A stretch of 64,000 nucleotides of DNA, taken from Trogon surrucura (taxonomy: Eukaryota; Chordata; Aves; Trogoniformes; Trogonidae). The position numbers and the translations under genes are program-made. The notes beneath the pieces are model-generated. The model was not told the origin of the DNA. It was given only the letters and a program-made list of their open reading frames with translations, and did not search any database. This document shows positions 35,401-36,918 of the stretch, piece by piece. Location: assembly GCA_020746105.1 (NCBI GenBank), contig CM036626.1, positions 21,999,001 to 22,063,000 of the forward strand. The letters run 5' to 3'. Numbering within the stretch: position 1 is the stretch's first letter; every line of letters starts with the position of its first letter.

Positions 35401-36437
35401 CCCGAGCTCTGTGTCCATCTGTGACCTGGCTGTTCTCAGGAGTGTTTTTCCTGCACCCACGGGGTCTGCGTTCCCATCACCAACGCTCTGACGATTGGCG
35501 ACACACACGTCTCTGCTTCTGCAGAATTTCTTATTCGGAATGTGCTCAGTTTCCTGTTCGTTACACGCTCTTCTCTGTGGTTTGCTCTGGGTGTTCGCTC
35601 GATTCCTCTTTTCCGAGCTCTTTCCGGTTTTCTTATTCTGAACCTTTTCCCCACCTGTCCCCCTTCTTTTGGGTTTCAAACTCTCCTCCGGGTTTAGGCC
35701 TGTCGTGACCAAATCTGGGCTCTCCAGAGTGGACGTGACATCCCCTGGCTGGTCATTTCCAAGGTGAACAGTTCCAGTTCTACCCTCTGCGCCACTCTGT
35801 ACACCGAGGTCTCGCGTTTGACTCTGGCAATCCTCATTCCCTAAAACAGTTCCCGCAGCTCTGTGTCCTTCCACCCCCGGGCAGCTGCTGCCCTGACAAG
35901 GAGCCGTAAAATCAAAATCTTCTGCTTTTAGCTTCGCCTCTCCAGTCTTCCGCAGATACTCCAGGAGCGCTCGTTTCGATCTCAGCTTGTTTCCCTCGGG
36001 GCTGCCGCGCAAAAGAAAAAAGCCGATTAGCGACGGTGCCTCCCTTCTCCCGCGGAGCAGAACGAACGACGCGAGCTGACAGGGGGATGCCCGGCCCAGT
36101 GTTTGTGACCCGACCCAAAAAGGTCAAGGCACAAACGGTCGAATCCCCGCTACTGGGCGGGCAGCCCGCTCGCCCACCTCACGAAGTACACGTCGATCCT
36201 TCCCGCCGTCCTGCCCCGCTGCCTCCGCCGGGCCACCCGCTGCCAGCCGCCGGGAGCCGCCGCCGCCGCTCTCCTCGCAAGCTTCCCCGCCGCCGCCGCG
36301 TCGCCCTCCTCGCCTCCCGGGAGGCTGCACGGCGCAGGGAGCCCCGGGGGCGGCCCCGCTTCGGGTAGCGACGAGTCGGGCGATGCGGCCCCGGCCTCCC
36401 CGCCACAGCTTCCCGCCGCCATGACGGCCGCCTCCAT
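32404..36437 (-). CDS. MBD4: Methyl-CpG-binding domain protein 4, T:G/U:G mismatch DNA glycosylase
   Basis: Nuclear base-excision-repair enzyme that removes T or U opposite G at deaminated CpG. Exons: 36178-36437, 35142-36001, 34528-34602, 34109-34243, 33751-33900, 33023-33126 and 32404-32481, giving 553 residues (human 580). The N-terminal MBD spans the exon 1/2 junction ([22 protein letters not shown], then [21 protein letters not shown]). A long basic, poorly conserved linker follows. The C-terminal HhH-GPD glycosylase domain starts near [19 protein letters not shown], has the hairpin [13 protein letters not shown], and carries the catalytic Asp in QDHKLN (about residue 533, equivalent to human Asp560). 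Two in-frame ATGs (36437 and 36422) both fit, and the first was chosen. The start lies in a duplicated promoter unit shared with IFT122. Confidence 0.95.
33388..33440 (-). repeat. CR1 LINE 3' fragment
   Basis: AATCATAGAAAACGTGATGCTGGAAGGG resembles the CR1 3' terminus in minus orientation, between MBD4 exons 5 and 6. It is very short, so the call is tentative. Confidence 0.45.
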
Positions 36438-36654
36438 CACGTGACGCCGGGCGCTCCCGCCTCCCGCTCGCCGCGGCCCCGCCCCCCGTCGGGTGCCCCC
36501 TGGCGGGCCGGAGGACGCGGCGGCGCGCACCGCGCATGCGTGTTGCCCCTGGCGTCACCACCACGCCGCTCCTGGCGCCAACGAGCGGTGCCGGTGCCGG
36601 GGATGCGAGCCGCGCTCACCTGGCGCGACACGGCCAAGCAGCGGTGAGCGGCCC
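36414..36654. repeat. Promoter duplication, copy A (MBD4-proximal)
   Basis: First copy of a tandem pair shared with 36708-36918. Order within the unit: GCCGCCATGACGG (MBD4 ATG region, minus), then CCATCACGTGACGCC (E-box/CRE-like), GCGCATGCG (NRF1-like), and an IFT122-like first exon (ATG at 36603) ending in a GTGAGCGG donor at 36643/36644. The copy is about 30 bp longer than copy B in the middle. Its RFX half-site corresponding to that of copy B is decayed. Confidence 0.85.
36603..36643 (+). CDS. IFT122: Alternative or relic IFT122 first coding exon (copy A)
   Basis: A 41-nt frame encoding [13 protein letters not shown] plus two bases, with an intact GTGAGC donor. It is the copy-A counterpart of the true first exon and has the same phase, so splicing to exon 2 would keep the frame (Arg in place of Cys at the junction). 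It differs from the IFT122 family start (RDKAE) at two residues, as expected for a spare copy under weaker selection. Expression is unknown. Confidence 0.5.
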
Positions 36655-36707
36655 CGCTCCGCGGCACGGTGGGACACGCCCGCCCTCACCGCCATCACGC
36701 CCCGTCT

Positions 36708-36918
36708 CGCCGCCATGACGGTAGCCTCCATCACGTGACGCCGCAGCGCGCCCTCCTCCCCCCCCCCGCCAGGCGCCCCCTATCGGGCGGGAGGACCCGG
36801 CAGCGGCTCCCAACGCGCATGCGCGTCGCCCGTAGCAACGCGCCGGTGGCGGTGCCGGTGGCGGGGATGCGGGCCGCGCTCACCTGGCGCGACAAGGCCG
36901 AGCAGTGGTGAGCGGCCC
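36708..36918. repeat. Promoter duplication, copy B (IFT122-proximal)
   Basis: Second copy of the tandem unit. It keeps the CCATCACGTGACGCC element, a palindromic NRF1 site (CGCGCATGCGCG) and the functional-looking IFT122 exon 1. On the minus strand it retains the MBD4-like ATG context (36716), but that frame soon departs from MBD4. Confidence 0.85.
36825..36839 (+). promoter_or_regulatory. IFT122: RFX X-box of the IFT122 promoter
   Basis: GTCGCC-CGT-AGCAAC matches the X-box consensus (GTNRCC, 0-3 bases, RGYAAC) at every fixed position and lies 28 bp before the IFT122 ATG. X-boxes bind RFX factors and drive ciliary genes, which fits an IFT-A subunit. Confidence 0.7.

Follow-up and report, generated by a model that had tools for sequence, protein, structure and literature searches.

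The divergent promoter region between MBD4 and IFT122, in the analysed stretch of 64,000 nucleotides (the window), is a tandem duplicate comprised of two head-to-tail units, A and B, within positions 36350-36918. The units adjoin directly and differ in the gene start that is intact, which is the MBD4 start in unit A and the IFT122 start in unit B. From these differences we infer that copy A could function as the main promoter of MBD4, and copy B as the main promoter of IFT122. Coordinates of the units and of their substructures are presented in Table 1.

Table 1. Units of the duplicated MBD4-IFT122 promoter region, their gene starts and candidate sites (positions in the window)
Feature	Position	Strand	Description and basis
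Unit A	36350..36654		5' part of MBD4 exon 1, divergent promoter and spare IFT122 exon 1 with donor; alignment with unit B
Unit B	36648..36918		MBD4 exon 1 remnant, divergent promoter and IFT122 exon 1 with donor; alignment, genome match
Unit junction, GCGGCCC	36648..36654		7-bp microhomology; alignment and sequence
MBD4 exon 1, coding part (predicted)	36178..36437	-	Donor GTGGGC; splice sites assigned by visual inspection
MBD4 start copied in unit B	36555..36731	-	58-codon frame to stop, without MBD; translation
Spare IFT122 exon 1 (A)	36603..36643	+	Frame and GTGAGC donor intact
IFT122 exon 1 (B)	36867..36907	+	12/14 residues as in solved IFT122 (8bbf, 8fgw)
IFT122 exon 2 (predicted)	37130..37196	+	Common acceptor for both first exons
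E-box TCACGTGA, unit A	36437..36444		Motif scan
E-box TCACGTGA, unit B	36731..36738		Motif scan
NRF1-like GCGCATGCG, unit A	36532..36540	+	Motif scan
NRF1-like GCGCATGCGC, unit B	36815..36824		Palindromic; motif scan
X-box-like GTCGCC-CGT-AGCAAC, unit B only	36825..36839	+	Strict and degenerate consensus
CTCF-like GTGCCCCCTGGCGG, unit A only	36493..36506	+	Candidate site; motif scan

Global alignment of unit A (36350-36654) with unit B (36648-36918) comprises 228 identities, 34 mismatches and 52 gap columns. This corresponds to 87% identity over ungapped columns, or 13% substitution accompanied by many indels, in agreement with the many substitutions and the net length difference of 30 bp stated in the original prediction. 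Three collinear pairs of blocks were disclosed by a repeat finder, 70 nt long (36585-36654 and 36849-36918, 93% alike), 39 nt long (36411-36449 and 36705-36743, 92% alike) and 37 nt long (around the NRF1-like site, 78% alike). Together with the local alignment of 36300-36680 against 36681-37000, which reaches a score of 190, these blocks bear out the proposal of two units built of the same ordered parts. Divergence is distributed unevenly along the units: 9 of 115 ungapped columns differ at their ends, which hold the gene starts and the E-box, compared to 19 of 101 in the middle (Fisher p 0.024, for regions picked after inspection).

Chance similarity between GC-rich sequences is ruled out as the source of this resemblance by three controls. 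Dinucleotide shuffles (n = 1000) gave a mean local score of 27.4, with a standard deviation of 3.7 and a maximum of 44. The best among 674 other pairs of GC-rich 350-bp segments in the window reaches just 54; the similarity of A and B is therefore not generic GC-richness, and the concern that it might be limited to generic GC-rich motifs is not substantiated. Among 14 CpG islands, delimited by our own criteria in a contiguous 264 kb (20 stretches of 10 kb and the window), the duplicated island scores 178 and the runner-up 55. Searching the 1.17 Gb genome of the same assembly (164 contigs) with segment 36411-36654, which represents most of unit A, gave two places, units A and B only, the second match being 36705-36918 (73% identity, E 2.5e-35). 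The existence of many genomic copies of the unit was rejected on this basis, with repeat counts being lower bounds and very common words skipped in the search.

The original prediction placed the units at 36414-36654 and 36708-36918. Their number was correct and their bounds were too narrow, as the left end of unit A is near 36350, within MBD4 exon 1, and that of unit B is at 36648. The left flanks, 36350-36410 and 36648-36704, align with a score of 17.5, which was attained once in 5000 mononucleotide shuffles and in none of 886 real GC-rich stretches. Because of this similarity, nothing between the units remains as an unexplained spacer; a spacer was considered and rejected, as the sequence separating the repeat-finder blocks can be aligned to MBD4 exon 1. 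Rightward of 36654 and 36918, past the donor, no similarity was detected, and 4295 of 5000 shuffles score at least equally. The copies are adjacent and collinear, similar above chance, and their similarity ends at definable breakpoints, as characterizes a tandem duplication. The junction heptamer GCGGCCC is also located at the left end of the units, 36350-36356, and at the right end, 36912-36918. Its presence at both ends and at the junction is as expected if a microhomology-type tandem duplication took place, such a match not being rare in GC-rich DNA.

Both proposed gene identities are supported, by structure matches of IFT122 and of the MBD, and by the Pfam MBD. The peptide encoded by exon 1B and exon 2 matches residues 1-36 of IFT122 in PDB 8bbf and 8fgw (E 7.7e-15, 55.3 bits), which we take to be the human protein, compared to 45.1 bits for the peptide of exon 1A and exon 2. 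Among the first 14 residues, 12 in B and 9 in A are identical to solved IFT122. Four base differences separate exons 1A and 1B in these 14 codons, three of them replacements and one silent; all three protein differences are on the A side (K10T, E12K and C14R, relative to both exon 1B and solved IFT122). Four differences are too few to prove that exon 1A is decaying. Exons 1A and 1B share the donor GTGAGC and the phase with exon 2, so that a transcript initiated in A could skip B and be spliced to exon 2. As the frame and donor of exon 1A are intact, unit A could still drive IFT122. Motif matches place further IFT122 exons at about 38.8, 39.7, 40.6 and 42.2 kb.

On the opposite strand, the predicted MBD4 exon 1 (ATG at 36437) is connected to a second exon, whose predicted start is 36001, in the sequence DVYFV/SPEGNK, and the resulting peptide matches the MBD structure of MBD4 (E 8.9e-18). 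In a Pfam scan of five minus-strand frames from 30.3-36.1 kb, frame 35041-36123 matched MBD above the cut-off (22.9 vs 21 bits) and frame 33740-33952 matched HhH-GPD below it (23.9 vs 26.2 bits); no Pfam match was obtained for the remaining three. The MBD4-type ATG predicted for each unit is present in both, with the correction that it resides on the minus strand, its first base being 36437 in A and 36731 in B. ATGACGG on the plus strand, at 36421 and 36715, opens just a 7-codon frame. The frame from the ATG at 36731 begins with MEATVMAA and runs antisense through the spare IFT122 exon 1A. In-frame use of this ATG, which is in the same phase as the ATG of unit A 294 bp away, was rejected, as a stop is met. 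A transcript fired leftwards from B would carry the 58-codon frame (36555-36731) upstream of the real MBD4 ATG. Because the MBD4 start is intact in A and stopped in B, and exon 1A is altered, each unit is intact in its outer half and damaged or altered in its inner half.

These differences also bear on the question of whether the two units are an assembly artefact or the echo of a second haplotype, an explanation that we consider extremely improbable. A spacer-less palindrome with 39-bp arms, positioned 62 bp downstream, belongs to a type of sequence that can arise from fold-back during assembly or library preparation. However, substitution of 13% combined with many indels would far exceed heterozygosity or read error, and different gene parts are intact in each copy.

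MBD4 and IFT122 are oriented head to head, and their starts are less than 1 kb apart (MBD4 ATG at 36437 on the minus strand, IFT122 ATG at 36867 on the plus strand), as in divergent promoters; the two genes are also oriented head to head in human. The segment 36100-36950 is a CpG island with a GC content of 0.77 and a CpG o/e of 1.06. Besides the E-box, NRF1 and CTCF patterns and the strict X-box, the motif scan included patterns for YY1, the GC box and others. Scanning of both units revealed no TATAAA in A or B. The two units are identical over the 20 bases that surround the E-box (36430-36449) and over the 9-base core of the NRF1-like site. Elsewhere in the window, TCACGTGA has one more copy, at 18778, and GCGCATGCG is found within the window in units A and B only. 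The short stretch probably drives MBD4 and IFT122 in opposite directions. CpG-island bidirectional promoters normally occur once per gene pair, in contrast to the two in tandem between MBD4 and IFT122. In the distance between start codons (165 bp in unit A, 135 bp in unit B), CpG o/e (1.05-1.09), lack of TATAAA, and E-box and NRF1-like sites, the units resemble the CpG-island bidirectional promoters of head-to-head gene pairs (Trinklein et al. 2004, as cited in PMC8076222 and PMC12871316).

The strict RFX X-box pattern (GTNRCC N0-3 RGYAAC) has its sole match in the window, on either strand, in unit B at 36825, and 22 of 5000 shuffles of B contain one. Its counterpart in unit A (36542-36556) does not match this pattern, nor a degenerate consensus; on the minus strand it is one base off the strict one. 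The degenerate consensus, RYYNYY N1-3 RRNRAC (accessible part of PMC2375033), reveals no site in unit A and one in unit B, found on both strands; it is common by chance, as a match turns up in 647 of 3000 shuffled versions of B, and the window contains 107 matches, both strands counted. In the same part of that source, the presence of an X-box upstream of the ATG does not predict RFX control in Drosophila (PMC2375033).

We regard it as reasonably probable that an old duplication of about 300 bp, joined by microhomology, was followed by a division of roles, with A as the principal promoter of MBD4 and B as that of IFT122. The duplicated unit, whose junction lies at the 7-bp microhomology, takes in the divergent CpG-island promoter common to both genes, the beginning of MBD4 exon 1, and the coding portion and donor of IFT122 exon 1. 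The present order from left to right is MBD4, unit A, the spare copies of IFT122 exon 1 and of the MBD4 start, unit B and IFT122, with each unit facing both ways. Subsequent unequal decay would have left A to serve MBD4 and B to serve IFT122. Both promoters may be held by the common E-box and NRF1-like sites, with putative RFX input beside IFT122 present in B only. Unit A might still yield a minor IFT122 transcript, in which the spare exon 1 is spliced over B to exon 2, and minus-strand transcripts from B would make little MBD4, because of the 58-codon upstream frame they carry. Since the inner arms face each other, rightward transcription from A and leftward transcription from B would be antisense to one another, which could be the reason for the decay of the inner starts. 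The avian neutral rate is about 2e-9 per site and year. At this rate, 13% divergence would place the duplication some tens of millions of years ago, if constraint and gene conversion are ignored.

It can reasonably, though indirectly, be inferred that each gene keeps its own promoter copy. Alterations of the inner halves (those of IFT122 exon 1 in A and of the MBD4 start in B) and the differences in the strict X-box and the CTCF-like site fit such complementary loss and do not prove it; the strict X-box may have been lost by A or gained by B. A subfunctionalised promoter pair of this kind would correspond to duplication-degeneration-complementation.

Two other explanations accept the duplication as real. 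According to one of them, which we find unlikely, the starts are redundant, and the region is one broad CpG-island promoter with two equivalent IFT122 first exons and no division of labour. Retention of the E-box, the NRF1-like site and the IFT122 donor in both copies is consistent with this, as is exon 1A, still open and spliceable in silico; however, exon 1A has replaced residues that B has in common with solved IFT122, and the MBD4 start of B is useless as coding sequence. According to the other, which is clearly less probable still, the IFT122 half of A and the MBD4 half of B are neutral debris, and their common features survived by chance. The ratio of three replacements to one silent change in exon 1 is near the neutral expectation, as reasoned rather than computed, and the 52 gap columns in the unit alignment point in the same direction. 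Conversely, the surroundings of the E-box and the NRF1-like core remained unchanged in units whose middle as a whole has diverged, which argues against neutral decay.

Roughly one vertebrate gene in ten has a promoter in common with a neighbouring gene, and it is poorly known how such pairs become regulated apart. In the duplicated MBD4-IFT122 promoter, the copies still stand side by side, their breakpoints are readable and their decay is unequal, which makes the partitioning of a promoter accessible to tests on a single short fragment of DNA. If the proposed division between A and B is true, the drifted copies might let the DNA-repair gene MBD4 and the cilium gene IFT122 each rely on its own copy. 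Tentatively, it is possible that the 300-bp duplication uncoupled the shared promoter by providing one copy to each gene, with RFX input having stayed or arisen on the IFT122 side only and an insulator-like CTCF site being on the MBD4 side only, and that the pair would in this way be regulated apart in this lineage.

Survey of the open-licence literature (titles and abstract starts) revealed no description of the MBD4-IFT122 promoter among the matches listed; a tandemly duplicated bidirectional promoter of this build was likewise not found among the matches listed in that literature. Word searches gave no mention of MBD4 or IFT122 in the accessible part of PMC8076222, and none of MBD4 in that of PMC3583895. 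A duplicated promoter that may act bidirectionally is described in the accessible part of PMC12871316 and represents a different case. The view that such an arrangement had not been described holds for the MBD4/IFT122 promoter among the matches listed from the open-licence literature, and does not hold for duplication of a divergent promoter as such, which is already known from BRCA1/NBR2 (accessible part of PMC8268747). There, a duplication is described for the BRCA1 promoter region, which is situated between BRCA1 exon 1a and NBR2 exon 1 and is called bidirectional in a figure legend; the human segmental duplications are 14 kb, and a BRCA1 pseudogene is located 28 kb upstream of BRCA1 (PMC8268747). 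The two loci share a duplicated bidirectional promoter region, and the other BRCA1 copy is a pseudogene of the BRCA1 start. Unlike those 14 kb duplications with a copy 28 kb away, the MBD4-IFT122 unit is about 300 bp long, directly tandem and limited to the promoter and gene starts, which leaves its two copies between one and the same pair of genes. As far as the literature searched goes, a direct tandem of 300 bp that takes in just the promoter and the two gene starts is new.

In arrays of the protocadherin and Dscam type, each first exon of a repeated promoter-exon unit is spliced to one shared exon further downstream. IFT122 is predicted to resemble them in having a repeated promoter and first exon that join a common exon 2. 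The promoters of such arrays serve one gene and make protein diversity, whereas the MBD4-IFT122 unit faces two genes. Arrays of alternative first exons or 5' cassettes are represented by clustered protocadherins and chelicerate Dscam (accessible part of PMC4835542).

The palindrome mentioned above, located in IFT122 intron 1 (36981-37058), has 39-bp arms that are 97% complementary, with no spacer. It is the sole inverted repeat reported for the window (at least 25 bp, copies within 300 bp, seed 12), and a 90-nt RNA that spans it (36975-37064) folds to -95.7 kcal/mol. The palindrome may be either a fold-back artefact or a real product of template switching. In addition, SNORA7 was found at 30494-30632 on the minus strand, beside a frame that has no Pfam match and resembles an RPL32 exon. 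Both are located within 30294-30632, in a CpG island at about 30.4-32.0 kb. At the left end of the window, positions 12-83 on the minus strand give a weak tRNA match (31.1 bits vs a gathering score of 29), possibly a tRNA-derived repeat.
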